The notes under the pieces: generated by a model
The model's database searches: none
What the model saw: only the letters and a program-made list of their open reading frames with translations
What the model was told of the DNA's origin: nothing
In this document: positions 588 through 25,602 of the stretch, piece by piece
Layout of the letters: each line of letters starts with the position of its first letter
Position numbering within the stretch: position 1 is the first letter of the stretch
Source of the DNA: a virus
Length of the DNA stretch: 31,871 bases
Direction: 5' to 3' (one strand)
Virus record (IMG/VR): IMGVR_UViG_3300020055_000091
Span: 1 to 31,871 of that record
Made by a program: the position numbers and the translations under genes

Positions 588-599
588 TATATTTATATA
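588..599 (+). promoter_or_regulatory. Late-type promoter motif, copy 1
   Basis: TATATTTATATA lies 20 nt upstream of the ATG at 619 and directly after the strong terminator. It is one of six copies of TATATTTATAT, all found just before structural genes. No -35/-33 partner is seen, as in T4-type late promoters, which use only a -10-like box. Confidence 0.7.
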
Positions 600-618
600 C
601 AACTAATATGGTAAAATC

Positions 619-1029
619 ATGAGTACAGATTTTGAATTATTTCCAGGTAAGAATCTAAGTGGCTTGTTCAAAGACATCTATGATAATCAACAGAACAAGA
701 AACAAAGAATATCAGAACTAATCGCTGAAATGAAAAAGGTAATCAGACATGCTGGTGATATGGCTGTAATTGGTCCAATCATAAAAGATTTAGTTGATAC
801 CTCAGTAAAGAACGATGATGCTCTAATCAAAATGGCAGCTATTGCTCAACGAATTATTGGTGCTCAACACAAAGCGGAAGGTGATAGTGGATTCTTATCT
901 GATGAAGAAAAAGAACAGCTTTTAAAAGAATTAGAAACTACAAGTAAAGAGGTTCTTGATGAGCAAGAACACAAAGTAGATGAACTTACTAATGAAATAG
1001 AAGAACTTAAACAGAAAGTTAATAAATAA
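619..1029 (+). CDS. Helical coiled-coil protein, possibly small terminase gp16-like
   Basis: A 136-residue, almost wholly helical, charged protein. Residues about 20-95 form helices around IIKDLVDTSVKNDDALIKMA, and the last 35 residues (KVDELTNEIEELKQKVNK) read as a coiled coil. The layout of a central helical hairpin with li...k.nd.l.kl spacing is reminiscent of the T4 small terminase gp16, which is also short and helical. That is a visual impression only, and it could equally be a baseplate or head assembly factor. It is the first gene after a late-type promoter and overlaps the spike gene by one base (TAATG), so the two are translationally coupled. The SD is weak. Confidence 0.8.
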   Translation: MSTDFELFPGKNLSGLFKDIYDNQQNKKQRISELIAEMKKVIRHAGDMAVIGPIIKDLVDTSVKNDDALIKMAAIAQRIIGAQHKAEGDSGFLSDEEKEQLLKELETTSKEVLDEQEHKVDELTNEIEELKQKVNK

Positions 1030-2354
1030 TGTCTAAAAGAAGAGCAGCATTAACATCTGTAATTAACGCATACGATGGTCAAAGTGAAATTGAATCATTT
1101 GATTATGGTGTGGTGGTTGGTGTTATTACAAACATTGATGATGAACGAATACCAAAACACTCGGCTGAATTTGATGATTATATAAGTGAACGAAGTGAAT
1201 ATGTTGGTGCCGTATTTGTAAAAACAGTATCAGACCCTGTAGCTAATATTGAAAATAGTAAACCCTACTATCCGCGAAATAGAAACAATATAATTTTACC
1301 AATTGTTGGTGAAACTGTACGAGTATTTAGAGGTGGTGGTGTAAGGGAATATGAACGAATTGCATCCAACCCCAATCTTAACTTAGGTAACTTTGCGAAA
1401 GATGCTGCAAAGAATCTTTTACCTAATGATGAAAAACCAAATAAATCTAAATCTAAAAATTATAAGGAAGTTTCACAGACCGGTACTTCCAATACAAGTG
1501 GAGCTGGTGCTGAAAAATTAAAAGATTACGGAGAATACTTTCAACCAGAAAGGGTTAATTCATTAAGATTATATGAGGGAGATACTTTAATTCAATCTCG
1601 ATTTGGACAATCAATTCGTTTTTCTGCATACAATAATGAAGAAAATACTTTTTCACCAACTATCATTATTAGAAATCGAGAAAATGATTTAACCACCCAA
1701 GAAAAGACAGGATTTATTACTGAAGAAGATATCAACCGAGATGGTTCAATTATTGCAATAACTTCTGCAGATTATAAATTAGATTTCCAACCAGGAATTG
1801 TTGATGATAAAGGAAATACTGATTTCAAAACAACCCCAATAAATTTTAAACTACCGAAAGAATATACAGGTAATGACCAAATGTTGTTATCATCCGAAAG
1901 AATAGTTTTATCTGCAAAATCAGAAGAAATGATTTTCTTTTCGAAGGGAAATTATGGATTTATTTCTGATGGTAAGTTTACAATAGATAATGGGAATGGT
2001 GGTGCTGATTTAGATTTTGGTGATGATGTAACTATAACTACTGACCGAAACAATGGAGATTTTTCAGTTAATACTGGTACCGGTGAAATCAGATTAAATA
2101 CAGATGAACTAGGAAACTCACCATCGCGAACTGGACCCGAAGACCCCACCGGTCAAAAAAGTTTAAGAAAAGAACCACTAGTTCGTGGTCAAGTTCTTGT
2201 AGATTTACTTAGTGAATTGATTGATGCAATCAACAAACAAGTGTATAATACCCCATCGGGTCCTACTGCGGTGGGTCCCACCAACCGTTCTGATTTTAAT
2301 GATATTAAATCAAGATTGGAAGAAGCACTTTCTACATTAAACTATACGGAGTAA
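1029..2354 (+). CDS. Baseplate central spike / hub protein (gp5/gpV-like)
   Basis: A 441-residue protein that probably trimerises below the tail tube to form the membrane-piercing spike. Evidence: an N-terminal beta region (about 25-115, with a VVVGVIT strand), a low-complexity linker (about 130-165, Lys/Ser/Thr/Gly), then the OB-fold signature GDTLIQSRFGQSIRF near residues 184-198, typical of gp5/gpV spikes. Next come Gly/Asn/Asp-rich short strands (about 300-355) suited to a beta-helix needle. A C-terminal helix, VRGQVLVDLLSELIDAI (about 385-402), is common in phage spike proteins. No lysozyme domain like that of T4 gp5 is present. It is coupled to the preceding gene by a TAATG overlap and is followed after 3 nt by the next gene. 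Confidence 0.82.
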   Translation: MSKRRAALTSVINAYDGQSEIESFDYGVVVGVITNIDDERIPKHSAEFDDYISERSEYVGAVFVKTVSDPVANIENSKPYYPRNRNNIILPIVGETVRVFRGGGVREYERIASNPNLNLGNFAKDAAKNLLPNDEKPNKSKSKNYKEVSQTGTSNTSGAGAEKLKDYGEYFQPERVNSLRLYEGDTLIQSRFGQSIRFSAYNNEENTFSPTIIIRNRENDLTTQEKTGFITEEDINRDGSIIAITSADYKLDFQPGIVDDKGNTDFKTTPINFKLPKEYTGNDQMLLSSERIVLSAKSEEMIFFSKGNYGFISDGKFTIDNGNGGADLDFGDDVTITTDRNNGDFSVNTGTGEIRLNTDELGNSPSRTGPEDPTGQKSLRKEPLVRGQVLVDLLSELIDAINKQVYNTPSGPTAVGPTNRSDFNDIKSRLEEALSTLNYTE

Positions 2355-2357
2355 TTT

Positions 2358-2936
2358 ATGGGTTGGGATATTTTCAATAGTATGATGAAACCCTATATGG
2401 AAAATCCAAATGGAGTAAAATCTAAAGAAGATTTTGCAAAAAAGTTTACGGATGCTTATGATACTCAAGTAAAAATAGGAACTGTTTTATGTAAGGGGAT
2501 TGGTGGTTCTCCGCTTCCACTTAAATCTGGTAATAAAGAAATAATGGAAAAATTAATGGTAGCTGCTTGTTCAATGGCATTAACCAAAAGCGATACGGGT
2601 AAGCATACTTTTCTAAAAGATGTTGGTTCTGCAGTAGTTGCATATTGGAGTACAGGATTATTACAATCAGTTCCACCAAGCATACCCGCAAGTGGTGCTG
2701 TTCAAAATATATCACTAACCAATGGTCAAGTTATGAACCCTGGTAAATGGCCAGAAACTCCACCTGAATTTCCAACTGACGATGTGGGTAATTTTTTAGA
2801 TACATTTACTTTGTATGCAAATATACACTTACTATCTATTGAGTTTATGTGTCAAACTTCTTCACTATATCCTGGATTTCCACTTTCACCAATACTACCA
2901 GGTATTCTTCAAACAAAGGGTTATCAACTTAATTGA
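2358..2936 (+). CDS. Conserved-looking structural protein, unknown function (192 aa)
   Basis: I cannot name the family. The N-terminal half is helical (WDIFNSMMKPYM..., then KEIMEKLMVAACSMAL), with the middle stretch AVVAYWSTGLL near residues 92-102. The C-terminal half is rich in Pro and aromatics (PGKWPETPPEFPTD, then FLDTFTLYANIHLLSIEF) and ends in YPGFPLSPILPGILQ. Hydrophobic stretches are broken by prolines, so a membrane protein is unlikely. The start has a good SD (cGGAGtaattt-ATG) that overlaps the end of the spike gene. Its place between spike and gp25 suggests a baseplate or hub component. It ends the first sub-operon, and a late-type promoter follows 18 nt later. Confidence 0.8.
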   Translation: MGWDIFNSMMKPYMENPNGVKSKEDFAKKFTDAYDTQVKIGTVLCKGIGGSPLPLKSGNKEIMEKLMVAACSMALTKSDTGKHTFLKDVGSAVVAYWSTGLLQSVPPSIPASGAVQNISLTNGQVMNPGKWPETPPEFPTDDVGNFLDTFTLYANIHLLSIEFMCQTSSLYPGFPLSPILPGILQTKGYQLN

Positions 2937-2954
2937 CCCATAATTTTTTGAGAA

Positions 2955-2965
2955 TATATTTATAT
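2955..2965 (+). promoter_or_regulatory. Late-type promoter motif, copy 2
   Basis: An exact TATATTTATAT ends 24 nt before the ATG at 2990, in the short gap between two structural genes. It can drive the long run of close-packed genes 2990-15570. No hairpin separates it from the upstream gene, so read-through from copy 1 is also likely. Confidence 0.68.
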
Positions 2966-2989
2966 TAAGATAAAACAAAACAATTTAAA

Positions 2990-3592
2990 ATGGATTCAAA
3001 GAAATTAGCAAAACTAATTAAAGTAATTGTAGAGGCAGAAGTTGCTAAGAAACAAGAGCAATTCTTATCTAAAACCTTCCCTAAAATTTTAGAGGAAGAA
3101 GTAAATCGTAGAGTGAAAAAAGCACTCAACGAGGCGAAGGGAGGTGTATCTTCCTCGCCAGTTGTAGAACAAGAAATTGACCCGTTTGCTCAAGCAGAGG
3201 CTGTACTACAACAAGAACGAGTACAACAAGTTCAAGAACAAAGACAGTTCACAAGTAATCCCGTCTTAAATCAAGTTCTTAATCAAACACAACCATTCAG
3301 TGCAGAACAGAGAAAAGGTACACAAGGAAATAAATCAGTATTAGATTCATTCCAAACTCAACAACCACAAGTTCAAGAAAGTTATGATAAAACAGTATCT
3401 TTCAATAACCAAGGTGCACAGATGGGATTAGAAGGAATGAGAAGTCAAATGGCAGCTCAAATGGGATATGGAGATATGCCAGGAGTTGGTGGTGCAAAGA
3501 AAACAGGACTTGGAGTCCAAACGGGTTTACCGGGCTTAGATAGAATATTAAATAGAGATAACTCTGAATTAGTTAAAAAATTTAAAAGGTAA
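2990..3592 (+). CDS. Gln-rich coiled-coil structural protein (200 aa)
   Basis: An unrecognised protein in three visible parts. The first, a charged helix (about 1-50), starts KKLAKLIKVIVEAEVAKKQEQ and includes KILEEEVNRRVKKALNEAK. The second is a long Gln-rich, low-complexity middle (about 60-165), including QQERVQQVQEQRQF. The third is a compact C-terminal tail, LPGLDRILNRDNSELVKKF, that looks like a docking peptide. Such helix-linker-peptide designs suit scaffold or connector proteins of the baseplate. There is no obvious SD (caatttaaaATG). Its stop overlaps the start of the following 26-codon ORF (TAATG). The coding call is good; the function is unknown. Confidence 0.75.
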   Translation: MDSKKLAKLIKVIVEAEVAKKQEQFLSKTFPKILEEEVNRRVKKALNEAKGGVSSSPVVEQEIDPFAQAEAVLQQERVQQVQEQRQFTSNPVLNQVLNQTQPFSAEQRKGTQGNKSVLDSFQTQQPQVQESYDKTVSFNNQGAQMGLEGMRSQMAAQMGYGDMPGVGGAKKTGLGVQTGLPGLDRILNRDNSELVKKFKR

Positions 3593-3672
3593 TGGTTGAG
3601 GGATTAATTGTAATAGTAATGGGAGTTATAGTTGTTATTACAATTATTCAACATTATATAAAAGGAGAGTAG
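3592..3672 (+). CDS. 26-residue single-span membrane micro-ORF
   Basis: ATG at 3592 overlaps the stop of the preceding gene (TAATG), and TAG lies at 3670-3672. The product is nearly all hydrophobic in its first 20 residues (GLIVIVMGVIVVITIIQ), followed by HYIKGE, which is a plausible single membrane helix. The SD of the next gene (GGAG 3664-3667) is inside its last codons. The exact tiling from stop to SD argues for translation, but this could simply be the leader of gp25, since AT-rich DNA easily encodes Ile/Val runs. Confidence 0.45.
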   Translation: MVEGLIVIVMGVIVVITIIQHYIKGE

Positions 3673-3675
3673 ATA

Positions 3676-4110
3676 GTGGCATATATCATTGGTAAAAAAG
3701 TTATTAAAGATACCGAAGAAGAATTTGATTCTTACGCGTATGGAATAACTTTACCTGTTAAAAGAGGAAATACTGGTTTCTTTGAACAGGCGTTTACCTC
3801 GTTTGAGCAAGCTAAATCTAATCTTAAAAATTTGTTATTAACTAAGAAAGGTGAAAGAATAATGCAGCCAGAATTTGGTTCTGGTTTACATTCTTTATTG
3901 TTCGAACAATTGGATAATAATTTAGAACAAAAATTAGAAGAAACTATTGTAGAATCTGTAAATTTTTGGTTACCCTATATTACTATTGATGAAATCGATG
4001 TTGAAATGACAGATGAGATGAAAGATAGACATGAGGCTAAAATGAAAATTGGTTTTAGAGTTGGTAATCAAATTGAAACTCAAGAGGTAACATTTACAAT
4101 ACAGGAGTAA
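3676..4110 (+). CDS. 25: Baseplate wedge protein gp25 (GPW/gp25 family)
   Basis: A 144-residue protein at the usual length for the family, which forms the sheath-contacting core of the contractile-tail baseplate wedge and resembles phage P2 gpW and T6SS TssE. The diagnostic stretch is KKGERIMQPEFGSGLHSLLF (about 57-76), which carries the family's E-P-x-FG core, followed by a helix (LEQKLEETIVESVNFWLPYI) and a final beta sheet. It uses a GTG start with GGAG 8 nt upstream; no in-frame ATG fits better. The gp6 gene follows 5 nt after the stop, the classic 25-6 order of wedge genes. Confidence 0.93.
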   Translation: MAYIIGKKVIKDTEEEFDSYAYGITLPVKRGNTGFFEQAFTSFEQAKSNLKNLLLTKKGERIMQPEFGSGLHSLLFEQLDNNLEQKLEETIVESVNFWLPYITIDEIDVEMTDEMKDRHEAKMKIGFRVGNQIETQEVTFTIQE

Positions 4111-4115
4111 AATAA

Positions 4116-6143
4116 ATGGCGTTAAACACAACAAATAAAAAAAACAATGGTAGAAAGATAAACTACCTAAACAAAGATTTTTCTCAGTTCAGACAAAATC
4201 TAATTCAGTACGCCAAAACTTATTTTCCACAAACCTATTCGGATTTTAACGAGTCATCGCCTGGTATGATGTTTATGGAAATGGCAGCTTACTTAGGAGA
4301 TGTTCTTGGATATTATATTGATGATACTTTAAAAGAATCACTAATAACAACCGCAGAAGACCCCAATAATGTTTTAAACCTTTCAACTTTTTTAGGATAT
4401 AAACCAAAGGTAACTTCACCTGCAATAACAAAGATATCAGTTTATCAATTAGTACCATCAAAATACAGAAGAAATTCTAGTAGTGGTGTTGATTATGAAC
4501 CAGATTCAGATTACTATTTAAGAATCAAAGAAGGTATGTTAATTGAATCTAATAAAGGTGTAACTTTTAGAACAACTGAATTATTAGATTTTAACGATTC
4601 AACTGATAGAGAAACATCTATTTATGAAAGAGATACAAATGGTAAACCAACCTTATATTTGATAAAAAAATCTGTTACTGCTATTTCAGCAACAGTAAAG
4701 ACAGTTACACAAGATTTTGGAACATCACCAAGACAATTTTCACAAATTAGAATTGCAGATACAAATGTAATAGATATTATTGATATACGAGATGAGTCTG
4801 GAAATAAATGGTATGAAGTTCCTTATCTTGCTCAAGAAATGGTTTATGTAGATTATCCTAATACTGAAAAGAATGATAAAGATTTAGCACAATTCAAAGA
4901 TTCCGTACCAAATATTTTAAAACTAATTAAAACTTCTAGAAGATTTGTTAAATCAATAAATGAAAACCAAGAAACTATTATAACATTTGGTGGTGGTAAT
5001 TCAACATCTTCAGATGAACAACTTATACCAAATTTAAAAAATGTTGGCTTAGGATTACAATCTTCTATCAATCGTTTAGGAGAATCATTTGACCCCGCGA
5101 ACTTTTTAAAAACCAAAACGTATGGACAGGCACCAACGGGTACTTTTACTGTTGAATATTTAGTTGGTGGTGGTGTAAGTTCTAATATTGAAAAAAATAC
5201 TTTAACACAAATTCAAGCAATTGCATTCGATGATGACACTAGTTCTTTTACTCCTGCTGAATTGAGATTATATAACTTTTGTAGAGACTCTGTTGCAGTT
5301 GATAATGAAGAACCAGCAACAGGTGGTAGAGGTGCAGAGACGATTAGCGAAATAAGACAAAATGCACTTGCAAACTTTAGTTCTCAAAATAGAGCAGTAA
5401 CTCGTAAAGATTATCAAGTTCGTGCATTATCAGTTCCAACAAAATATGGTGGTGTTGCCAAGGCATACTGTTCACAAGATGGAGAACTTGATAATAATTC
5501 GCCGAGTTCAATTTTATCTGACCCGAATACCTTACAACAATTTACTGATTTAGTTTCTTCTTTAAAAGATAGAAACCTTAGTGAAATGGAAATTAGAAAA
5601 GAAGTAGAAACTTTTTTAAGTGGTAAACAAACCAATTCTAAAGAGAAGAATAATCCATTTGCAATTAATCTTTACTTACTTGGGTATGATTCAAACAAAA
5701 AATTAAAAGGACTAAATCGTGCTATTAAGGAAAATGTAAAAACATATTTAAATGAATTTAGAATGTTGACAGATGGTGTTAATATTCTAGATGGATTTGT
5801 TATTAATATTGGTGTTGATTTTGAAATTAGAGTTTATAATGGATACAATAGTAGAGAAGTTTTAGTAAAATGTATTAAAGAAATACAAAACTACTTTAAT
5901 ATTGATAATTGGACATTTAATATGCCAATAAACATTTCGGAGTTGGAACTTTTAATTGCAGGAGTAGAAGGTGTTCAATCAGTACCTAATTGTGAAATTG
6001 TAAACAAATGTCAAGGTAGTTATTCAAATGTATCTTATAATATTTCCGATGCTACTAAAAATAAAATGGTTTACCCATCTTTAGACCCATCGGTGTTTGA
6101 AGTGAAGTATCCAAATAAAGACATAAAAGGGAGGGTTGTTTAA
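4116..6143 (+). CDS. 6: Baseplate wedge protein gp6 (BaseplateJ family)
   Basis: A 675-residue protein matching T4 gp6 (660 aa) in size and layout. In the baseplate it forms the dimeric wedge that closes the inner ring and works with gp25 and a gp7/gpI-type partner. Visible hallmarks are the N-terminal helical region NYLNKDFSQFRQNLIQYAK and SSPGMMFMEMAAYLGDVLGY (about 48-67), and the BaseplateJ core near 408-455 with NRAVTRKDYQVRALSVPTKY. A C-terminal part, INISELELLIAGVEGVQSV, follows. The SD is weak (cAGGAGtaaaataa-ATG). The gene ends with a one-base TAATG overlap with the next gene. Confidence 0.92.
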   Translation: MALNTTNKKNNGRKINYLNKDFSQFRQNLIQYAKTYFPQTYSDFNESSPGMMFMEMAAYLGDVLGYYIDDTLKESLITTAEDPNNVLNLSTFLGYKPKVTSPAITKISVYQLVPSKYRRNSSSGVDYEPDSDYYLRIKEGMLIESNKGVTFRTTELLDFNDSTDRETSIYERDTNGKPTLYLIKKSVTAISATVKTVTQDFGTSPRQFSQIRIADTNVIDIIDIRDESGNKWYEVPYLAQEMVYVDYPNTEKNDKDLAQFKDSVPNILKLIKTSRRFVKSINENQETIITFGGGNSTSSDEQLIPNLKNVGLGLQSSINRLGESFDPANFLKTKTYGQAPTGTFTVEYLVGGGVSSNIEKNTLTQIQAIAFDDDTSSFTPAELRLYNFCRDSVAVDNEEPATGGRGAETISEIRQNALANFSSQNRAVTRKDYQVRALSVPTKYGGVAKAYCSQDGELDNNSPSSILSDPNTLQQFTDLVSSLKDRNLSEMEIRKEVETFLSGKQTNSKEKNNPFAINLYLLGYDSNKKLKGLNRAIKENVKTYLNEFRMLTDGVNILDGFVINIGVDFEIRVYNGYNSREVLVKCIKEIQNYFNIDNWTFNMPINISELELLIAGVEGVQSVPNCEIVNKCQGSYSNVSYNISDATKNKMVYPSLDPSVFEVKYPNKDIKGRVV

Positions 6144-7198
6144 TGTATTACTTTTTAACAGCATCCAAGGATGCATCAATCTACTTACAACAACCAACTC
6201 AAAATACTGGGTTAGATGAGATATTAGAAGTTTCTAAAACTTATTATGGAAACTTAAAAGATGTTGCACACTCTTTAATTAAATTTGAAACAACACCGCT
6301 TTCACAATCAATAGTAAGTGGTGATATAACAATGAGTTCTGCAGAACTAATTCTTAGAGAATGTGAATCCAGCGAGATTCCATTGGATTATACAATTTAT
6401 GCATACCAAGTTTCTCAATCATGGGATATGGGAATTGGTACTCGTTTTGATGAAATTTCAACAGATGGTGTATCTTGGAACAAAAGAACAACTGATAATT
6501 GGTTATTAGGAGGATATACAACAGGTACTACTGGTTCATTTAATGGTAAAGGTGGAACTTGGTACACTGGTTCCGCTGCATCACAGTCATTCTCATATGA
6601 AACATCTGATATACAAATGGATGTACTAGAACCAATAAACTCTTGGTTAAGTGGTTCAATTCCAAACGAAGGTTGGATTATAAAACACTCATCTGCAGTA
6701 GAAAACAATACAACAGATTATGGTCAATTAAAATTCTTTTCAAAAGAAACAAATACCATATACCAGCCTAAAGTAAGAATTGGTTGGGATGATTCTTCTT
6801 TTGTAACCGGTTCTTTAACAGAACTTACCGCTGATGATATTCATGTAACATTCAAAAGATTAAAGACCAGATACAAGCGTGGAAGTAAACCTGAAATCAG
6901 AGTTTTCGGTAGAGAGAAATATCCTCTCAAAACATATACCAACACATACTCTTATACAGATGTAAAATATTTACCATCTTCTACTTATTATCAAGTAAAA
7001 GATGCAATTACAGAAGAGATAATCGTTCCATTTTCGGATTACACAAAAGTTTCATGTGATTCAAGTGGAAATTACTTTAAACTCAATTTAAGTAATTGGG
7101 AATATAATAGAGATTATTACTTTGAAATTAAAGTTGATAGAGATGGTGTAATTGAATACTTTGAAGATAAGGATTTAACTTTTACAGTAGAAAAATAA
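6143..7198 (+). CDS. DNRLRE-like beta-sandwich structural protein (351 aa)
   Basis: The N-terminal 230 residues read like a DNRLRE/carbohydrate-binding-type jelly roll. The opening ASKDASIYLQQPTQNTGLDE matches the D-A-x-[IV] and P-x-x-N-x-G pattern of that fold, and several Trp-containing strands follow (SQSWDMGIGTRF, DNWLLGGYT, PINSWLSGSIP, NEGWIIKHSS). The remainder (about 230-351) is a separate beta domain (RYKRGSKPEIRVFGREKYPL to FEDKDLTFTVEK). Its position right after gp6, coupled by TAATG with a strong SD (GGGAGGG), suggests a baseplate wedge or tail-fibre attachment part. The family call comes from visible motif spacing, not a search; the role is inferred. Confidence 0.78.
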   Translation: MYYFLTASKDASIYLQQPTQNTGLDEILEVSKTYYGNLKDVAHSLIKFETTPLSQSIVSGDITMSSAELILRECESSEIPLDYTIYAYQVSQSWDMGIGTRFDEISTDGVSWNKRTTDNWLLGGYTTGTTGSFNGKGGTWYTGSAASQSFSYETSDIQMDVLEPINSWLSGSIPNEGWIIKHSSAVENNTTDYGQLKFFSKETNTIYQPKVRIGWDDSSFVTGSLTELTADDIHVTFKRLKTRYKRGSKPEIRVFGREKYPLKTYTNTYSYTDVKYLPSSTYYQVKDAITEEIIVPFSDYTKVSCDSSGNYFKLNLSNWEYNRDYYFEIKVDRDGVIEYFEDKDLTFTVEK

Positions 7199-7199
7199 A

Positions 7200-8555: not shown

Positions 8556-8558
8556 TAA

Positions 8559-15599: not shown

Positions 15600-15610
15600 T
15601 ATATTTATAT
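15600..15610 (+). promoter_or_regulatory. Late-type promoter motif, copy 3
   Basis: An exact TATATTTATAT (continuing ATTG) sits in the 65-nt gap after the giant wedge gene and ends 25 nt before the ATG at 15636. No hairpin terminator is visible in the gap, only A/T-rich sequence. Confidence 0.7.
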
Positions 15611-15635: not shown

Positions 15636-16265
15636 ATGGCATATTTAGACAATTCGACAATTACTGTTGATGCAATCCTAACTAAAAAAGGTAGAGAAAA
15701 ACTAGCTTCAGGTCAAGGATTGGGAATTACAAAATTCGCTTTAGGTGATGATGAAGTAGATTACACACTCTACGAACCAGCTCACCCAAAAGGTTCTGCA
15801 TATTATGATGCAGCAATTAGAGCAATTCCAATTACTGAAGCATCACCAGATGAAACTCAAGTACTAAAATATAAGTTGGTAACTTTACCAAAAGGAACTA
15901 AAAAGATTCCAAAGGTAGAATTTGGTGTACCATCTATTTCAGTAACTCAAACTTCTGGTCAAGTATCATTGACACCAACTACATCACCAAGTGGTAATTC
16001 TCAAGCAGGATATACTATTGTTCTTTCTAACAAGAATGCAGGTTCCGTTGTTGGTCAAGGAACTGCAGCGGGTAGTGGAACTGTACCTGTATTCTTAGGT
16101 GATGAAATTACAACTACTGCAGCAGTAGAAACTGGATTAACTTTCACATTTATTCCTAATCCAAACATTACAACAACAATTAAGACAACATTGACGGTAT
16201 ATGGTAACGAAACTGGAGGTTCACAGACTATCCCAGTTACTATTACCTATGTACAACCAACATAA
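15636..16265 (+). CDS. Tail/virion structural protein with Ig-like C-terminus (209 aa)
   Basis: The N-terminal 95 residues (ITVDAILTKKGREKLASGQG, then ITKFALGDDEVDYTLYEPAH) form a compact domain of a type I associate with marine T4-like virion proteins. Residues about 98-209 are a Thr/Ser/Gly-rich beta sandwich (SISVTQTSGQVSLTPTTS and so on to TIPVTITYV) that looks like a single Ig-like domain, as on phage decoration or fibre proteins. The start is supported by GAGG upstream (agaGGaataaattATG). It is the first gene of a two-gene unit with the 397-residue protein. The function is not known; an accessory fibre or decoration role is inferred. Confidence 0.78.
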   Translation: MAYLDNSTITVDAILTKKGREKLASGQGLGITKFALGDDEVDYTLYEPAHPKGSAYYDAAIRAIPITEASPDETQVLKYKLVTLPKGTKKIPKVEFGVPSISVTQTSGQVSLTPTTSPSGNSQAGYTIVLSNKNAGSVVGQGTAAGSGTVPVFLGDEITTTAAVETGLTFTFIPNPNITTTIKTTLTVYGNETGGSQTIPVTITYVQPT

Positions 16266-17501: not shown

Positions 17502-17531
17502 AACCCTCACCACTTAGGTGGGGGTTTTTTA
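17502..17531 (+). terminator. Rho-independent terminator
   Basis: A 10-bp stem (AACCCTCACC 17502-17511, GGTGGGGGTT 17517-17526, one G-T wobble) with an ACTTA loop is followed by a run of T to 17530. It ends the 15636-17480 unit, and the next late-type promoter starts 7 nt later. Confidence 0.9.
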
Positions 17532-17537
17532 TTTCGG

Positions 17538-17548
17538 TATATTTATAT
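17538..17548 (+). promoter_or_regulatory. Late-type promoter motif, copy 4
   Basis: An exact TATATTTATAT follows the terminator directly and ends 14 nt before the ATG at 17563, the shortest spacing of the six. The SD (AGAGG) begins immediately after the motif, so the leader would be only a few nucleotides if transcription starts about 7 nt downstream. Confidence 0.7.
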
Positions 17549-17562
17549 AGAGGAATTACATT

Positions 17563-18657
17563 ATGTTAAAATCAATACCAAAATCAAGCATATCTCGTAG
17601 AAGTTTTAAAGTTTACAAAAAATTTACAGCTTCCGAATCAGATTATACTGTGTTAACGGCATCTTCAAGTTTAGATGACCCAAACCATTCACTTTATCGG
17701 TCTATACAAGCAAAGTATTATACTGATAATGGTATAATTAATAATTTTGGTGCTTTACGAAATCCAAGAGATTTTGAAATCGAAAGACATTTCCCAGATA
17801 CAATTTATGTATTAAAACTAGACCAATTAAAATATGGGGAAGGTATAAAACCAAAATCATTATCAATTACTCCATCTGGTTCTGTATCTTTACAAGATGA
17901 TGGGTTTGGAAAACTAACTAGTCCAACACCATCTTATGGTATTACTAATTGTGATTTAGAAAATGAAATTTTAGAAATTAGTCAAAATGGAGTACTTTAC
18001 ACTTTAAATTTACAAAGTTTAGATTTAAATAATGGAAATATACTCGTAATTGATAATGGTAATCCAGAAACTTATGTAGTTATTTCTTTAGATTTTGAAT
18101 CTGGTACTCTTGTACTTGACGACCCATTTGATATAGCTGAAATTAGCTTAACTGAAGCAGCAATTGGAAATGTTTTCTATTCAGAAGGGTTAGTTGTTGT
18201 TACTCAAACGGATTCTGTTGATTTAACCGAATATTCAATGGAATATCGCTCAACACAAACCATTCATGAAACGGAAGTATTAATAGAAGTTAAGGCAGGT
18301 GAATTTAATTTCTCACAAAATCCATCTGCGGTTGATGTGGTGTTAAGTGGTTCTTATGATTTTACCACAACTACAATTTCAAATGTATCTCCTGCTAAAA
18401 CTACTAAGATAAAAGAAGTAAGAGATATATCACAAAAAACATCATTTACTGGTTCTTATGGTTCAACCACCGGTTCTTGGGAAGATTACTTTACCTATAA
18501 ATTATCAGACCCAACCGGGTCTTATCTTGCACCTTATATTACAACAATTGGGTTATATGATACAACTGGTGATATGGTTGCTATTGCAAAGTTACCAACA
18601 CCAATAAAAAATTTACCAGATTACGATTTAAACTTTATTGTTCGTTTTGATACTTAA
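17563..18657 (+). CDS. Virion structural protein sharing a C-terminal module with its neighbour (364 aa)
   Basis: The N-terminal region (SIPKSSISRRSFKVYKKFTA, then NNFGALRNPRDFEIERHFPD) and the central beta-rich part do not match a family I know. The last 110 residues repeat the pattern at the end of the 397-residue protein: EFNFSQNP, then YITTIGLYDTTGDMVAIAK, then LNFIVRFDT, aligned to EFNYSNNP, ITTVGLYSDANELIAVAK and LIKVKLDF. It therefore looks like a paralogous fibre or baseplate-associated protein attached in the same way. It is transcribed as its own unit between two late-type promoters, with an AGAGGA SD before the ATG. Confidence 0.76.
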   Translation: MLKSIPKSSISRRSFKVYKKFTASESDYTVLTASSSLDDPNHSLYRSIQAKYYTDNGIINNFGALRNPRDFEIERHFPDTIYVLKLDQLKYGEGIKPKSLSITPSGSVSLQDDGFGKLTSPTPSYGITNCDLENEILEISQNGVLYTLNLQSLDLNNGNILVIDNGNPETYVVISLDFESGTLVLDDPFDIAEISLTEAAIGNVFYSEGLVVVTQTDSVDLTEYSMEYRSTQTIHETEVLIEVKAGEFNFSQNPSAVDVVLSGSYDFTTTTISNVSPAKTTKIKEVRDISQKTSFTGSYGSTTGSWEDYFTYKLSDPTGSYLAPYITTIGLYDTTGDMVAIAKLPTPIKNLPDYDLNFIVRFDT

Positions 18658-18660
18658 TGT

Positions 18661-18671
18661 TATATTTATAT
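18661..18671 (+). promoter_or_regulatory. Late-type promoter motif, copy 5
   Basis: An exact TATATTTATAT begins 4 nt after the stop of the preceding gene and ends 17 nt before the ATG at 18689, with a strong SD (AAAGGAG) in between. It is the nearest candidate promoter for the two small genes and the sulfotransferase/GIY-YIG pair. Confidence 0.7.
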
Positions 18672-18688
18672 AAAAGGAGAAATATACT

Positions 18689-18877
18689 ATGGCTTACCAA
18701 ATTTTAGACTTAGAAGGTACTATTATTAAAACCGTTGAAACTGATGAGCTTTTACAAGCTGAATTTGATAATACTGATATCAACTTATTTTGGGATGATG
18801 AGGGATTAGTTGAATCATTAAAGGCTAATCACGACGATACAACGAATATTCAAATAGTTAAACGAGTAGTTGAATAA
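18689..18877 (+). CDS. Small acidic protein, unknown (62 aa)
   Basis: Sixty-two residues, acidic, beginning AYQILDLEGTIIKTVETDEL, with a WDDEGLVES stretch in the middle and a basic IVKRVVE end. The start is secure, with AAAGGAG 9 nt upstream. It overlaps the next small gene by one base (TAATG), so the pair is co-translated. The family is not recognised. It follows a late-type promoter, so a small virion or assembly part is possible. Confidence 0.7.
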   Translation: MAYQILDLEGTIIKTVETDELLQAEFDNTDINLFWDDEGLVESLKANHDDTTNIQIVKRVVE

Positions 18878-19062: not shown

Positions 19063-19074
19063 AACTTTAGATTT

Positions 19075-19647
19075 TTGGCTTTACTTATTAGTCACTTAAA
19101 CCACTGGGGTTTTATTCACATTCCCAAAACAGGTGGTACAACAATTTCGCACATATTACAATCAAATCATGACTGTGAGATAATCACGGGTCATGATTCT
19201 GTGCGAGCTTTTGATGGTAATAACTATTTTTTATTTACTTTTGTACGAAACCCATTTACGCGAATACAATCTGCATTTTATCATGGAGTAAGAAAGGGTT
19301 TATATAAAAATGATTTTTCAAACTTCCTATTAACCGCAAATCAAAATGATTTATGGCTTTTACCTCAAACTTATTTTATTAACGCAGGAAGAAATGAAAC
19401 AAATCAGATTAATTTTATTGGAAAGTATGAAAACTTTGAATCTGATTTAATTAAAGTTATGAAGAAAATTAATATAGAGGGATTTGAAATAACTCATTTA
19501 AACAAAAACCCTTTATATGATAGACAACCGAATCTAAACCAAGATAAATACTACAAACTTCTTTATGAAGAAGAATGGCAGAAAGACTGGGTTCGAGAAA
19601 GGTATAAAGATGATTTTAAACAATTTGACTATGAGTTGGAAATATAA
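19075..19647 (+). CDS. Sulfotransferase family protein (190 aa)
   Basis: A Sulfotransfer_2-type enzyme that would move sulfate from PAPS to a sugar hydroxyl. Visible: the 5'-phosphosulfate loop FIHIPKTGGTTISHIL (13-28, K18, T22/T23), a GH pair (ITGHDSVR, H40) and the 3'-phosphate motif FTFVRNPFTRIQSAFYH (R58, S66). At 190 residues it is at the short end of the family but has both PAPS motifs. No ATG precedes the motif; TTG 19075 is the best start and no good SD is seen. It is in frame with the upstream 61-residue gene across one TAA. The substrate is unknown; it may decorate phage or host surface glycans. Confidence 0.85.
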   Translation: MALLISHLNHWGFIHIPKTGGTTISHILQSNHDCEIITGHDSVRAFDGNNYFLFTFVRNPFTRIQSAFYHGVRKGLYKNDFSNFLLTANQNDLWLLPQTYFINAGRNETNQINFIGKYENFESDLIKVMKKINIEGFEITHLNKNPLYDRQPNLNQDKYYKLLYEEEWQKDWVRERYKDDFKQFDYELEI

Positions 19648-20080
19648 AGGAGATTACATAACAGAACTTGGAGATATGCCCGAAAATGTATTTGGGTTTA
19701 TTTACAAAATCACAAATTCTGAAACTGATGAATATTACATTGGTAAAAAACAAGTGGTTTCAGTTCGTAAAAGAAATTTCGGTAAAAAAGAAATTGCATT
19801 ACTTGAAGATAAAAGAGTAAAGAAATACGAGATGGTTACCAAAGAATCAGATTGGAAAACTTATCGTTCCTCAAATGATAAAGTAAAATCTTGGTTTGAA
19901 ACCGATGAAGGTAGGTCTAAGTGTAAATTAGAAATCCTTAGATTTTGTACCAACAAAAAATCACTTACTTATTATGAGTTACAAGAACAGTTTGCTCATG
20001 ATGTGCTTGGAGATGAGTTAGCATTAAATGATAATTTATTAGGCAAGTTTTTTAGAAAAGATTTGGAAATATCAGAATAA
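19610..20080 (+). CDS. GIY-YIG nuclease family protein
   Basis: The GIY-YIG core is clear: GFIYKITN (29-36) and EYYIGKKQ (41-48), then ESDWKTYRSSNDKV and a late YYELQEQFAHDVLGDELALN carrying the expected metal-site Glu. This kind is common in T4-like phages, some as free-standing homing endonucleases. The start is chosen as ATG 19610 because AAAGG lies 7 nt before it; ATG 19631 (MSWKYKG) is the alternative, and a longer frame from ATG 19565 lacks support. It overlaps the 3' end of the sulfotransferase gene by 38 nt and lies just before the primase promoter. It could be a homing nuclease or act in host DNA breakdown. Confidence 0.82.
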   Translation: MILNNLTMSWKYKGDYITELGDMPENVFGFIYKITNSETDEYYIGKKQVVSVRKRNFGKKEIALLEDKRVKKYEMVTKESDWKTYRSSNDKVKSWFETDEGRSKCKLEILRFCTNKKSLTYYELQEQFAHDVLGDELALNDNLLGKFFRKDLEISE

Positions 20081-20093
20081 TTTCGTATATTTG
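20062..20093 (+). promoter_or_regulatory. Bacteroidota-type promoter before the primase gene
   Basis: TTTG (20062-20065), a 20-nt spacer, then TATATTTG (20086-20093) match the known Bacteroidota primary-sigma pattern, a TTG/TTTG -33 box and a TAnnTTTG -7 box with 17-23 nt between. Predicted transcription would start near 20100, leaving a leader of about 12 nt with an AAAGG SD before ATG 20112. The -33 box lies inside the end of the GIY-YIG gene. It differs from the late-type motif, which has no -33 partner. Confidence 0.65.
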
Positions 20094-20111
20094 CATCAAT
20101 AAAGGTAAAAT

Positions 20112-21053
20112 ATGCTTTCGCATCACGATAAACAACAAGTAGTAAATATACTTAACGAAGTATTAGGTTATGGAACTTCTATGAAAGGAGATGAACAGGC
20201 ACATCATTGTCCATTCTGTCATCACCACAAAAAGAAGTTACAAGTAAACCTACAAACTCAACAATGGCACTGTTGGGTATGTGATTCAAAAGGGAGAAAG
20301 ATTTCTTCGTTACTTAAAAGACTTCATGTAGATTCTCATAAACTGAAAAAGTTATATGAAATATATGGAGATGATTATGTAGTATATCAACAAGACACCG
20401 AAGAAGAAAAGGTAGAGTTGAGGTTACCTAAAGAATTTCAATCACTATTAAAAGAACCAAAAGGATTAAATCCCTTGTTCAGAAAGGTGAAAGAATATGC
20501 CGAAAAAAGAGGTATTACTCACGAAGATATTATCAGATATAATATTGGGTATTGTGATGGTGGTTTGTATGCCAATCGCATTATTATTCCTAGTTATGAT
20601 TCTGATAATAGACTCAATTACTTCATCGCACGGAGTGTATATGATGAGGAAAAATTTAAATACAAAAATCCACCGGTTTCAAAAAATGTTATCATGTTTG
20701 AAAACCAAATAAATTGGAACGAACCAATTACCTTAGTAGAGGGAGTATTTGATGCTATGGCAGTGAAGCGAAATGTAATCCCTCTACTTGGTAAGTTTGT
20801 ACCAAAAAAATTAAGTGATAGTATATATAAAGAAGGAGTTTCTAAAATCAATATATTACTCGATGAAGACGCTCAAGAACAAGCGTTACGATACACTATA
20901 CAATTTCAGAATAATGGAATTGAAACTACTAACATTAAACCTCAAGAAAAAGATGCTTCGGATATGGGATTTGAAAATGTTAATCAACTTTTAAAACAAA
21001 CCAAAAAAACAGAGTTTAGTGATATTATATCACAAAAATTATTAGGTTTATGA
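20112..21053 (+). CDS. 61: DNA primase (T4 gp61 / DnaG-type)
   Basis: A 313-residue primase, near the size of T4 gp61 (342 aa), which makes RNA primers for lagging-strand synthesis with a replicative helicase. The N-terminal zinc ribbon shows HHCPFCHHHKK and WHCWVCDSKG (C33, C36, C54, C57). The catalytic core has RIIIPSYDSDNRLNYFIARS, then the Toprim motifs TLVEGVFDAMAVKR (E210) and ILLDEDAQEQA (D251, D253), and a later KDASD motif (about 280-284). It is the first gene of a replication/recombination cassette behind a Bacteroidota-like promoter. The stop overlaps the next start by 4 nt (ATGA), so translation is coupled. No helicase gene is in the window. Confidence 0.92.
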   Translation: MLSHHDKQQVVNILNEVLGYGTSMKGDEQAHHCPFCHHHKKKLQVNLQTQQWHCWVCDSKGRKISSLLKRLHVDSHKLKKLYEIYGDDYVVYQQDTEEEKVELRLPKEFQSLLKEPKGLNPLFRKVKEYAEKRGITHEDIIRYNIGYCDGGLYANRIIIPSYDSDNRLNYFIARSVYDEEKFKYKNPPVSKNVIMFENQINWNEPITLVEGVFDAMAVKRNVIPLLGKFVPKKLSDSIYKEGVSKINILLDEDAQEQALRYTIQFQNNGIETTNIKPQEKDASDMGFENVNQLLKQTKKTEFSDIISQKLLGL

Positions 21054-22186
21054 TTCATGTAATTCCACACCACATAGCAGTAGGTTCATACACACGATGG
21101 TATGATATGATTGAATTCGAAGGACCAGTAACTTTTTATGAGTTTGATAATAAAGAAGAAATTGAAAGAAAACTTTTAGGAGAACCTCCATATGAAGATG
21201 AACTTTTAAAACATCTAGAAGTTATAAAACCAAAAACCACCGATGTAATTTTTTTTGATTACAAATATCTTTACAATTATCATAACATAGCGTTACACAA
21301 TAAATTACAAGAATTATCAAGAAAAAATAATAACTGTAAACTTGTTGCCTTTGATGATGATAATGCTACACCATATGATGATGATGAGAGATTTACAATA
21401 TTTTCAAATATATTTCAAGTAGAAGTTGAAAATGGAAAAATAATCAAACTACCAGAAAATTGTAACTATTATCGATATAGGGCTTCAAAACAAGAGTATT
21501 TTCCACATCTAGAATATTTAGTTGAAACTTTTAAATTAAACATTAGACAAAAAAAATGTAACTTAATCATTGGTGTTGATAAATTAGAACGATTAGAAAT
21601 ATTTAAATATTTTCATAATATAGGTTTAACTAAAGATAGTTATGTTGGATATAGTGGATTTACATCTACATACGATGATTCTGAATTAAGTGATTCGTTA
21701 ATCAAATTTAAAAAAGATAATATCCCAACTATATTAGACACCCCATTTTGGATGAGTGAAATGGGTTCGGTGAATGTAGAAATTCCGCCACTTCCTTTTA
21801 CAATGAATTCTTACTTTAGTTGTATTTTAGAAACACAAATACTTCTTGGTAATTACGTTCATCTAAGTGAAAAATCTTGGAATCCATTTCTATCAAAAAA
21901 TATACCTTTAATTCTTGGAAGTACTTATATAAATTTATATTTACAAGAAATTGGTTTCTGGTTGGCTGATGATTTATTTGATTTATCACCAAAAGAAACT
22001 AGAAGTGATATATTAAATCAATACAAGAAAAATTTAGATGTTATAAATAAAATGACACTAAATGAAATTCACGAATATTATCGTAAAAACATTCAAAAAA
22101 TAGATAGAAACTTTGAAATGATGAAACAGGCAAAATTCTTTTATAATGTCTCTAACTACAAATCATTAAAAAAAAGGATTCATTGA
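21050..22186 (+). CDS. Putative glycosyltransferase, GT10/fucosyltransferase-like C-terminus (378 aa)
   Basis: The best clue is at about 260-313: FSCILETQILLGNYVHLSEK, then SWNPFLSKNIPLILGSTYIN, then LQEIGFWLADDLFDLS. This follows the E-K-x-[WF]-x-P-[FL] ... P-[IL]-[IL]-G ... GF pattern of GT10-type sugar transferases and of many marine phage hypothetical proteins. The N-terminal half (IHVIPHHIAVGSYTRWYDM, then TTDVIFFDYKYLY) looks like a Rossmann-type alpha/beta fold but has no motif I can name. The ATG overlaps the primase stop. No membrane or signal segment is seen, so it is probably cytoplasmic. With the nearby sulfotransferase it may belong to a glycan-modifying set; donor and acceptor are unknown. 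Confidence 0.6.
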   Translation: MIHVIPHHIAVGSYTRWYDMIEFEGPVTFYEFDNKEEIERKLLGEPPYEDELLKHLEVIKPKTTDVIFFDYKYLYNYHNIALHNKLQELSRKNNNCKLVAFDDDNATPYDDDERFTIFSNIFQVEVENGKIIKLPENCNYYRYRASKQEYFPHLEYLVETFKLNIRQKKCNLIIGVDKLERLEIFKYFHNIGLTKDSYVGYSGFTSTYDDSELSDSLIKFKKDNIPTILDTPFWMSEMGSVNVEIPPLPFTMNSYFSCILETQILLGNYVHLSEKSWNPFLSKNIPLILGSTYINLYLQEIGFWLADDLFDLSPKETRSDILNQYKKNLDVINKMTLNEIHEYYRKNIQKIDRNFEMMKQAKFFYNVSNYKSLKKRIH

Positions 22187-22202
22187 CAGAAAATTTATAT
22201 AA

Positions 22203-25200
22203 ATGGTTATAAACAAAATTTATCATTTGGCAGATTTACATATTAGAAATCTCCAAAGACATAAAGAATACAGACAAGTATTTAAAAAGTTTTTAAAACA
22301 AGTTAAAGAAGATAAAATTGAGGATTCTGTAATTTATATCGGTGGTGATATTGCTCATGCAAAAACAGAAATGTCACCAGAACTTGTACAAGAAATATCG
22401 TGGTTCTTAACAGAATGTTCAAAATTAAGAGAAACTATCTTAATCACAGGTAACCACGATTGTAACTTAAATAATTCACATAGATTAGATGTACTTACTC
22501 CAATTATTGAAAATCTTAAAAACCCTCGTATTCATTACCTTCGAGATACTGGTGTTTACAATATCCACAATCTTACTTTTGTTGTTTACTCCATTCTTGA
22601 TAATAAAGAGAACTGGCCATCGGGATATGATGTAGAGGGAGAACATAAGATTGCTTTATTTCATGGGCCAGTAAATAAATCACAAACTGATATTGGATAT
22701 ACCGTATCTTCAAATTCATTTACAACAGATATGTTTGATGGATTTGATATGGTATTGATGGGTGATATTCATAAAAGACAGATTTTACAAGCATACGAAC
22801 CTGATAATGGATTACCTGTAATTTCATATTGTGGTTCAATGATTCAACAAAATCATGGTGAGGTTTTAGAAAATCATGGTTATTTACTTTGGGATGTTCC
22901 AACAAGAAGTTATGAAGAATTTGATATTCATAATGATTATGGGTTCTTAACTGTCGATGTAGTTGATGGTAAAATTCCACAATGGGTTTATGATGAGGTT
23001 GGCACAAAACTTCCAAAGTATCCAAGATTAAGATTAAGGTTTACCAATACCGAACCAAGTGATATGAAACTTCGTATCACCGAATTGAAAAAATTATTTA
23101 AGGTTGCAGAAGTTACGGTAACGAGAACAGATACAATCGGTCAATTAAAGACTAATACCAAAGTAAATAAAAATATTGTTGGTGATGTTAAAGATGAAAC
23201 CTTCCAAAACTCACTTATTAGAGATTACTTAGAAAGACAATACCTTCTAGAATCAGAAGAATTGGATAAGATTGCAGAAATCAACAAAGAGTTAAATACC
23301 CAAATAGATAATTCAGATATTGCCGGTAACATTCTTTGGACACCAAAAGAATTCCAATTCTCTAATATGTTCTCTTATGGAGAAGATAATAAAGTAAGAT
23401 TTGATAAAGCACAAGGTATTGTTGGTATCTTTGCTCCTAATGCTTCAGGTAAATCTTCACTCTTTGATGCATTATCTTTTTGTATCTACGATAAGAACTC
23501 AAGAACTCATATTGCTAAGAACATTTTAAACAATCGTAAGAGTACTTTCTATTGTAAGTTTAACTTTGAGATTGATGGAGTGGATTACTTCATTGAACGA
23601 ACTGCTAAGTATGTTAGAAAACAAACAGCAGTAAAGGTTGATGTCAACTTTTGGTCAGAACAAGGTGGTATTATCACTTCACTCAATGGAGAACAAAGAA
23701 GAGAAACCAATGCTAATATTGAAAAGTATTTAGGTAAGTTTGAGGACTTTGTTTTAACTGCACTATCCCTACAAGGAAACAACGCACTCTTTATTGATAA
23801 ATCACAAACAGAAAGAAAAGAAATCCTTTCTCAATTTATTGGTGTAGATATCTTTGATAAATTATATCAAAAGGCTGCAGATGAGAATCGCGATAATGCA
23901 ACACTTATCAGAAAATTCAAGTCAGATGATTTTACGACTAAACTTGCCGACATTGAAACTCAACTTAAAACCGACAAAAATGAGTACAAACTCTTAGAAT
24001 TAAATCAAAAATCTCTGAAGGAGGAAGAAGATTTATTAAACAGACAAATCATTAAACTAAATGAGAAAATTGTAAAGTTAAATGCCGATAGTGGAGTTTC
24101 TGTTGATGAATTAGAAGACAGATATTCAATTCTCGTAGAAAAGAAAAAAGAAATTGTTTTATCTAAATCATCTATTCAAGAACGAATTAATCATCGAGAA
24201 GAATTACAAATCACTTTGGATGAAATCCTTGACCAATTCGATGAAGAAGATTTAGAAGAAGGGATTGGTAAGTTAAAAGATACAAAAGAAACTTTACGAG
24301 ATGTAGAATCACAGATAGATAAGATAAAGTTAAAATTAGATTCTTTATATGAAAGGAAAGACCATTTAGATAAACACAAATACAATGAAGATTGTGATAT
24401 CTGCATGGAAAACTCTCAAACCATCTTAGAACAAAAAGAAAAGGTAGAATCTGGTATTAAAGAACACGAAGTTGAATTTAAATCAGCAGATGAAGAGAGA
24501 TTGATGGTCAATTTATTAATTGATTCTTTAAAAGGATATGAAGAAGAGTGGGATAAATTTCAAGATGCTAAAGATAAAGAAGATAAACTTGATAGAGAAA
24601 TTTCTCAACTTATCAACAAGTTATCGACAACCGAAACCGAAGAAATTAGATTAGAAACTCAAATCATTCAACTTGAACAGTTGATTGAAGAGTATTATAA
24701 GAACGAAGAGCAGATAAAGAAGAATAAGGAAATTAGAGAAGAAATTACAGGTGTTCGTGATAAACTGAAAATTGTTAAAGATGATTTGAAATCTGTAAAT
24801 GGTGATATTCTTAAATTGAATGGTAAAATTTCTGCTCTACAAAATCAAAAAGAAACTATTGAGGGTAGAATTGAAGAAGTTAAAGATTTAGAAGAACAAT
24901 CTAAGTTATTTGATTATTATCTAAATGCTCTTTCCAAAGATGGTGTAAGTTACGAACTCATTGAAAAATCACTTCCAATGATTGAAGGTGAGGTAAATAA
25001 TATCCTTGCACAAATCGTAGAATTTGGAATGCAATTAGAAATGGATGGTAAGAACATCAATGCCTACTTAGTTTATGGAGACCAAAAATGGTCTTTGGAA
25101 ATGTGTAGTGGTATGGAACGATTTATTTCTGGTCTTGCAATCCGAGTTGCGTTAATCAATGTATGTAATCTACCAAGACCTAATTTCCTTGTAATTGACG

Positions 25201-25379
25201 AAGGTTTTGGTACTTTGGATAGTGAGAACCTACAATCTTTATTTATGTTGTTTACATACCTTAAAACTCAGTTTGACTTCGTAATGGTAATTTCACACAT
25301 CGATTCAATGCGAGATGTAGTAGATGGTCTTATCGAGATTAAGAAAACACCAGAAGGATTTTCACAAGTTAAGTTTTAA
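22203..25379 (+). CDS. 47-46: Fused Mre11-Rad50 (gp47-gp46 / SbcD-SbcC type) recombination protein, single chain
   Basis: One 1058-residue chain holds both subunits of the DNA-end processing complex. Residues 1-340 are the Mre11/gp47 nuclease: HLADLH (D11, H13), GGDIAH (D49), GNHD (84-86), FHGP (H154) and GDIHKRQ (H190) form the metal-binding set. After a helical linker (about 335-376), Rad50/gp46 starts with APNASGKSS (411-419, Walker A, first Gly replaced by Ala). Two long coils flank a zinc hook CDIC (C731, C734). Then come the signature MCSGME (S969, G970), Walker B NFLVIDEGFGTLD (D999, E1000) and H-loop ISHID (H1032). In T4 and cellular systems these are normally separate proteins. The start has no clear SD. 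Confidence 0.93.
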   Translation: MVINKIYHLADLHIRNLQRHKEYRQVFKKFLKQVKEDKIEDSVIYIGGDIAHAKTEMSPELVQEISWFLTECSKLRETILITGNHDCNLNNSHRLDVLTPIIENLKNPRIHYLRDTGVYNIHNLTFVVYSILDNKENWPSGYDVEGEHKIALFHGPVNKSQTDIGYTVSSNSFTTDMFDGFDMVLMGDIHKRQILQAYEPDNGLPVISYCGSMIQQNHGEVLENHGYLLWDVPTRSYEEFDIHNDYGFLTVDVVDGKIPQWVYDEVGTKLPKYPRLRLRFTNTEPSDMKLRITELKKLFKVAEVTVTRTDTIGQLKTNTKVNKNIVGDVKDETFQNSLIRDYLERQYLLESEELDKIAEINKELNTQIDNSDIAGNILWTPKEFQFSNMFSYGEDNKVRFDKAQGIVGIFAPNASGKSSLFDALSFCIYDKNSRTHIAKNILNNRKSTFYCKFNFEIDGVDYFIERTAKYVRKQTAVKVDVNFWSEQGGIITSLNGEQRRETNANIEKYLGKFEDFVLTALSLQGNNALFIDKSQTERKEILSQFIGVDIFDKLYQKAADENRDNATLIRKFKSDDFTTKLADIETQLKTDKNEYKLLELNQKSLKEEEDLLNRQIIKLNEKIVKLNADSGVSVDELEDRYSILVEKKKEIVLSKSSIQERINHREELQITLDEILDQFDEEDLEEGIGKLKDTKETLRDVESQIDKIKLKLDSLYERKDHLDKHKYNEDCDICMENSQTILEQKEKVESGIKEHEVEFKSADEERLMVNLLIDSLKGYEEEWDKFQDAKDKEDKLDREISQLINKLSTTETEEIRLETQIIQLEQLIEEYYKNEEQIKKNKEIREEITGVRDKLKIVKDDLKSVNGDILKLNGKISALQNQKETIEGRIEEVKDLEEQSKLFDYYLNALSKDGVSYELIEKSLPMIEGEVNNILAQIVEFGMQLEMDGKNINAYLVYGDQKWSLEMCSGMERFISGLAIRVALINVCNLPRPNFLVIDEGFGTLDSENLQSLFMLFTYLKTQFDFVMVISHIDSMRDVVDGLIEIKKTPEGFSQVKF

Positions 25380-25545
25380 CTCGTAAAACATTTTGAGGTT
25401 TTACACTTTGAGGAGTGGGTTTGTTGATTCTTTGTTTTATCATCGATTCAATTAACCCACTTTTTGTATATCCATGTTCTGCACAATAGTGGTGCAATTC
25501 CTCGTATAATTCCTTTTTTATTTGTATTGTCGTATATTTTCCCAT
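25369..25545 (-). CDS. Ribbon-helix-helix (RHH) DNA-binding protein, 58 aa
   Basis: The only minus-strand gene supported here. ATG is at 25545-25543 and TAA at 25371-25369. The product begins GKYTTIQIKKELYEELHHYC and continues AEHGYTKSGLIESMIKQRIN, the strand-helix-turn-helix spacing of Arc/CopG/MetJ-type RHH dimers: strand TTIQI, helix A KELYEELHHYCAEH, turn GYTK, helix B SGLIESMIKQRI. A flexible Pro/Gln tail (KPTPQSVKPQ) follows. It converges on the Mre11-Rad50 gene, overlapping its end by 11 nt, and diverges from the giant tail gene. No SD is obvious. The palindrome at 25548-25565 directly upstream suggests autoregulation. The fold is a visual call; the target is inferred. Confidence 0.72.
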   Translation of the reverse strand: MGKYTTIQIKKELYEELHHYCAEHGYTKSGLIESMIKQRINKPTPQSVKPQNVLRVKT

Positions 25546-25547
25546 AA

Positions 25548-25565
25548 TATATAGAGTTCTATATA
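25548..25565. promoter_or_regulatory. 18-bp palindrome, candidate operator for the RHH protein
   Basis: TATATAGA (25548-25555), GT, TCTATATA (25558-25565) is a perfect inverted repeat with 8-bp arms, ending 2 bp before the RHH start codon in the divergent region shared with the tail-gene promoter. RHH dimers typically bind short palindromes in front of their own genes. The AT-rich setting makes chance similarity possible. Confidence 0.45.
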
Positions 25566-25591
25566 ATATATATAACTTAATTTTTTAAGGA

Positions 25592-25602
25592 TATATTTAT
25601 AT
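25592..25602 (+). promoter_or_regulatory. Late-type promoter motif, copy 6
   Basis: An exact TATATTTATAT ends 16 nt before the ATG at 25619, with an AGGAG SD in between. Its far edge is only 26 bp from the palindrome next to the divergent RHH gene, so a bound regulator could affect both directions. Confidence 0.7.

Follow-up and report, generated by a model that had tools for sequence, protein, structure and literature searches.

Conserved AT-rich boxes as probable late promoters of a T4-superfamily myovirus with a candidate phage-encoded sigma factor

Six copies of the 11-mer TATATTTATAT in a 31,871-nt viral DNA fragment (the whole stretch analyzed, hereafter the window) are probably the late, virion-operon promoters of a Bacteroidetes T4-superfamily myovirus, read by a sigma factor that the phage itself encodes. 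That the boxes are promoters is strongly supported by their position, strand bias, and conservation. In the mechanism we favor, the core box TATTTATA, usually extended to TATATTTATAT, would lie at the -10/-7 position without a -33/-35 element. Host RNA polymerase with host sigmaA would read early and replication promoters (TTTGG-N19-TAnnTTTG). Later, a phage sigma-70-family protein (the orthologs of KNV73_gp118) would displace the host sigma on core polymerase and direct the enzyme to the TATTTATA boxes, where transcription would start.

The window, an IMG/VR fragment from a phage whose sequence is incomplete, has a GC content of 31.9% and comes from the tail/baseplate region of a T4-superfamily myovirus, with gp25- and gp6-like wedge subunits, a primase, and an SbcD/SbcC fusion. 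In the fusion, SbcD- and SbcC-like (gp47/gp46-type) parts are joined in one 1058-aa ORF (22203-25379). Elsewhere, a sulfotransferase-like ORF overlaps an ORF matching phrog_447 and a homing endonuclease family (19075-20080). By gp6, the window is closest among named records to Microcystis phage Mel-JY01 (42.6%), LR756508 (40.7%), and Flavobacterium phage immuto (37.5%). For comparison we fetched 80 IMG/VR relatives, including two of ~288 kb (G001 and G002; 287 and 289 kb).

An exact scan of the window recovered all six copies of TATATTTATAT reported by the first-pass annotation, all on the + strand and none on the reverse strand (Table 1). Dinucleotide shuffles gave an expectation of 0.19, and none of 100 shuffles reached six. 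Allowing one mismatch raised the count to 9, which is near chance. None of the six boxes falls within a coding ORF by our ORF calls, even though intergenic DNA makes up only 4.9% of the window, and each ends 14-25 nt before an ATG; the intergenic placement and the start-codon distances previously described thus hold. In a more stringent comparison, sites upstream of ORFs were counted for every eleven-mer sharing this A/T composition, 330 words in total. TATATTTATAT ranked first with 6 upstream sites in the window, compared with 2 for the next best word and a control mean of 0.024.

Table 1. Putative promoter elements and associated genes in the window.
Feature	Position	Strand	Nt to next ATG	Core or late box in distinct orthologous upstreams	Context
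Putative late box 1	588..598	+	20	17/17	before ORF 619-1029
Putative late box 2	2955..2965	+	24	29/31	before ORF 2990-3592, just upstream of gp25/gp6 baseplate genes
Putative late box 3	15600..15610	+	25		before ORF 15636-16265 (immuto gp107 ortholog)
Putative late box 4	17538..17548	+	14	1/2	before ORF 17563-18657 (immuto gp105 ortholog)
Putative late box 5	18661..18671	+	17		before ORF 18689-18877 (62 aa, hypothetical)
Putative late box 6	25592..25602	+	16	2/2	before >2084-aa ORF running off the window
Terminator-like hairpin with T tract	553..580	+			directly 5' of box 1
Terminator-like hairpin with T tract	17502..17526	+			directly 5' of box 4
Host-type promoter TTTGG-N19-TATATTTG	20062..20093	+			before primase; only complete one in the window; consensus from class A
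DNA primase (phrog_47)	20112..21053	+			gene under host-type promoter
gp25-like baseplate wedge subunit	3676..4110	+		0/33	operon-internal
gp6-like baseplate wedge subunit	4116..6143	+		0/31	operon-internal

The first-pass annotation had placed every copy before structural genes. That description is based on position and orthology, as the ORFs directly after the six boxes have no structural family assignment; in the tail/baseplate region of the window, such assignments are confined to the gp25- and gp6-like wedge genes. A minus-strand ORF (25369-25545) encoding a 58-aa Arc-like repressor (phrog_582, E 2e-5) adjoins box 6 and could regulate it.

The same pattern recurs in the relatives. Across the 80 fetched loci, many of which are near-duplicates, TATATTTATAT occurs 87 times on the forward strand and never on the reverse, in 41 distinct contexts. 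The motif scan with position counts that had been proposed as a check found coding copies absent from the window and all 32 forward copies in G001 and G002 intergenic, 24 of them 10-35 nt before a + strand ORF. With 9 upstream sites in G001 and 15 in G002, TATATTTATAT again had the most among the 330 same-composition words, the runners-up being mainly overlapping registers of the same sequence. The core TATTTATA is kept before the orthologs of ORF 619 (17/17) and of ORF 2990 (29/31; L007, one of the two misses, is truncated and has a start that was set wrongly). It is absent upstream of the operon-internal genes 1029, 2358, gp25, and gp6 (0/30, 0/25, 0/33, and 0/31), and upstream of the likewise operon-internal genes 6143, 7200, and 8559 it appears once (0/29, 0/25, and 1/22). 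Box 3 has a counterpart in both G001 and G002 and before immuto gp107.

Conservation extends to the named phages. In immuto, TATTTATA is the top upstream 8-mer, with 20 of its 30 forward copies lying 8-40 nt before an ORF. Because the 5' TA is not fixed at many of the immuto late boxes that retain TATTTATA, we take this 8-mer as the conserved core. Mel-JY01 has the same core before portal, tail-tube, and other late genes. The T4 late box consensus is TATAAATA. Forward copies of TATTTATA before ORFs number 24, 30, 20, and 10 in G001, G002, immuto, and Mel-JY01, and those of TATAAATA number 1, 5, 6, and 0. Some observations count against the favored explanation: a 50-kb stretch of LR756508 shows no TATTTATA enrichment although this record encodes the sigma, a small number of boxes are distant from called ORFs or on the opposite strand, and some are followed by ORFs not evidently late in function.

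Three promoter classes can be distinguished in G001 and G002. Class A is TTTGG-N19-TATATTTG or TATCTTTG, class B is TTTGG-N19-TATATTAGC, and class C, the late box, is TATATTTATA. TAnnTTTG is the flavobacterial sigmaA -7 box (PMC9723704), and class A is, judged by its sequence, the flavobacterial sigmaA promoter type; such host-type promoters suggest that the host belongs to the Bacteroidetes. The upstream TTTGG is present at 35 of 44 class A sites, 23 of 23 class B sites, and 0 of 50 class C sites, and only 2 of the 50 have even TTTG at the expected interval. Late boxes accordingly lack the Bacteroidetes sigmaA combination of TTTG ~19 nt upstream of TAnnTTTG. The upstream profile contains no strong second element, in agreement with the initial impression that no second box is present. 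The 50 sites thus have a TATA-like box without a conserved -35 element, at what is predicted to be the -10 position relative to the transcript start.

Class A sites precede pol-A-like, primase (G001), helicase (G002), GroEL (G001), and clamp genes. Class C sites precede hub, head-completion, gp107, virion-structural, and portal-adjacent operons, with ORFs of no assigned function and, in G002, an ssDNA-binding gene among the exceptions. It is mainly because of this split by gene function that class C is called late, and we infer late timing from it. Late boxes lie within a narrow range of distances from the start codon, the same distance as host-type promoters, and the two are nearly mutually exclusive (one gene head has both). 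Terminators precede 11 of 47 late heads versus 17 of 167 heads without a recognised promoter, a difference that is only suggestive of their being commoner before late heads. In class B, the host TTTGG is found with the host spacing; written as TTTGG-N19-TATATTAGCTTTATAA, it comprises 23 sites with an invariant upstream element (L102-L116, L087-L101). In immuto, many small-gene heads (67-74 kb; L118:17000-24000) have a TA(T/C)(A/C)TTTAGGTATCAATAATTAAAAC-like sequence with GTTG upstream and probably form a strong early promoter array.

A candidate reader of the late box emerged from the search for a gp55-like sigma that the first-pass annotation had recommended. The gp55 PHROG profile gave one weak match, to immuto gp118 (KNV73_gp118, E 0.008), and this in immuto only; searches of whole records with Pfam Sigma70_r2, r4, and PHROG 12791 yielded nothing usable. 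Orthologs of gp118 are found in G001, G002, and 24 fetched loci, in Mel-JY01 and LR756508 (40.5% identity in the latter), and in at least 600 stretches of viral contigs. In relatives, a few kb separate the gene from the baseplate genes downstream of it. One relative, L008, overlaps the window over 6201 bp at 99.98% identity, reaches 2309 bp further left, and begins inside the sigma gene, of which it retains 75 C-terminal residues (L008:3-227). Given that so nearly identical a locus carries its C-terminus, the window's own phage very probably encodes this protein, with the gene ~2 kb left of the window.

The candidate belongs to the sigma-70 family, as indicated by matches to sigma models and by the sigma2-like fold of its predicted structure. 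NCBIfam SigI models match 26 of 39 members (best E 1.3e-5), although this should not be read as a family assignment, the first member scanned having no SigI match. A type III-E CRISPR-associated sigma model matches 17 of 39 members, and Pfam Sigma70_r2 weakly matches 7 of 25. The whole-protein model (pLDDT 76) has two helical domains, the second C-terminal; the N-domain model is better defined (pLDDT 87, pTM 0.77). Foldseek lists were rich in sigma factors, and that for the N-domain in sigma region 2 structures. The best viral match (E 2.6e-4) is unnamed and the next is a Bacillus phage sigma (E 2.6e-3).

The specific link to gp55, a divergent sigma whose homology is confined to domain 2, is weak, because no Foldseek match against the PDB reached E<0.001 and hhalign probabilities were low (8-21%). 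The gp55 structure (7d7c_F) had the top query-normalised TM-score (0.55), yet its E was 0.78, and a sequence-profile search of the PDB gave no relevant match. When 64 ortholog families were ranked against the gp55 profile, the sigma candidate came first by a clear margin (score 31.5 versus 21.1). SigI is nonetheless the better sequence match, so that the search led to a sigma-70-family protein in relatives, but one closer in sequence to SigI than to gp55. The orthologs in G001 and G002 end in acidic tails that include some hydrophobic residues (e.g. ..IDLEEDIFDDED), whereas the polymerase tails differ (..KFFSFG), and the Mel-JY01 and immuto orthologs lack such acidic tails. Comparison of these tails revealed no clamp-binding tail common to sigma and polymerase. 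Homologs of gp43, gp44, and gp45 are present in G001, G002, and Mel-JY01 and were not detected in immuto. A replisome difference therefore exists within one clade, immuto having a PolA-type polymerase and the others a T4-type one (L117-L120 versus L087-L116 and L215-L218).

Pairing this sigma with the late box is suggested by their co-conservation in three lineages, by the missing class B in two of them, and by analogy with T4 (PMC2988020). The boxes might instead be read by host polymerase with host sigmaA or an alternative sigma, phage proteins merely activating it. TATATTTA differs from the host -7 box TAnnTTTG by a single base, and TATATTTATA contains its TAnnTTT, which favors such a scheme. 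We nevertheless consider it unlikely: TTTGG, nearly always present in host-type promoters, is found at none of the 50 late sites, many immuto boxes lack the 5' TA required by the TAnnTTT register, and a sigma-family gene is co-conserved. Less probable again is that the phage sigma serves another class, such as TTTGG/TATATTAGC class B, and that something else reads the late box. The second helical domain of the candidate could contact an upstream element. However, immuto and Mel-JY01 carry the sigma but have no class B, whereas TATTTATA occurs in all three lineages; class B also retains the host TTTGG at host spacing.

The narrow range of distances to start codons could also reflect a translation or mRNA-processing signal, and Bacteroidetes naturally lack Shine-Dalgarno sequences (PMC6847099). 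A signal of this kind is very improbable here, given that the box marks operon heads and is missing ahead of genes within operons (0/33, 0/31, and similar), shares its start-codon distance with host-type promoters while being nearly mutually exclusive with them, and in two copies lies directly 3' of terminator-like hairpins. A genome of 31.9% GC might also be expected to repeat AT-rich words by chance, an idea refuted by the shuffle, 330-word, orthologous-upstream, and 80-relative controls and to which we give almost no weight. Late promoters read by a phage sigma thus account best for the boxes. A more far-reaching proposal, which we advance tentatively and regard as rather doubtful, is that a SigI-like two-domain sigma, not descended from gp55, reads a reverse-complement T4 box; such a late switch would have evolved separately and would bypass the host -33 element in a deep clade of T4-superfamily Bacteroidetes phages.

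No description of the late promoters or late sigma of this widespread marine clade was found in the open-licence literature, and a search for the 11-mer gave no phage paper among the matches listed. What appears new is a T4-family late core that differs mid-box, equals the reverse complement of the T4 core, and is putatively tied to a two-domain sigma. With the box as a simple rule, genes on many uncultured contigs can be sorted into early and late. A testable role is assigned to immuto gp118, a conserved hypothetical protein from a phage in culture, and the system lends itself to testing how late sigmas adjust to the unusual promoters of Bacteroidetes.

Several known systems invite comparison. 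Like SigI-type sigmas (NCBIfam NF006176), which 26 of 39 orthologs match, the candidate has an N-terminal sigma2-like part and a C-terminal helical domain; unlike them, it is phage-encoded and its predicted promoter has no -35 element. Flavobacterial sigmaA promoters (PMC9723704) lie at a similar distance from the start codon and share TAnnTTT with the late box, which differs in having no upstream element and in ending in ATA rather than G.

The closest parallel is with the late promoters of T4 (gp55/gp33/gp45; Straboviridae; PMC2988020, PMC7892883), to which the first-pass annotation had likened the boxes. Much of that likeness stands: virion operons are preceded by a short AT-rich box, predicted to lie at -10, that has no -35 element; the phages encode a divergent protein of the sigma-70 family whose N-terminal part is sigma2-like; and G001, G002, and Mel-JY01 have a gp43/gp44/gp45-type replisome. 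The strand and position bias of the box, its conservation ahead of orthologous late operons, and its separation from the host-type promoters of replication genes also fit a late promoter of this kind. Other parts do not carry over. The core here is TATTTATA and not the TATAAATA consensus of T4, and the candidate sigma is nearer to SigI models, with an extra C-terminal helical domain. It also has no recognised clamp-binding tail of the gp55 type, and immuto has no detectable gp45, whereas replication coupling through the clamp is central in T4. TATTTATA is the reverse complement of TATAAATA, with 6 of 8 positions identical in register, and this relation may have arisen by chance, both words being AT-rich and nearly symmetrical. 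An antisense reading would place the T4 box TATAAATA on the minus strand; we rejected it because the genes are on the + strand and the start-codon distance is that of host-type promoters. For the distant T4-family phages KVP40, 44RR, S-PM2, and Aeh1, late consensus sequences predicted in silico by the same logic were reported to be highly similar to that of T4 (PMC2988020). Aeh1 changes two bases at one end (PMC2988020), whereas the present box differs from T4 in the middle.
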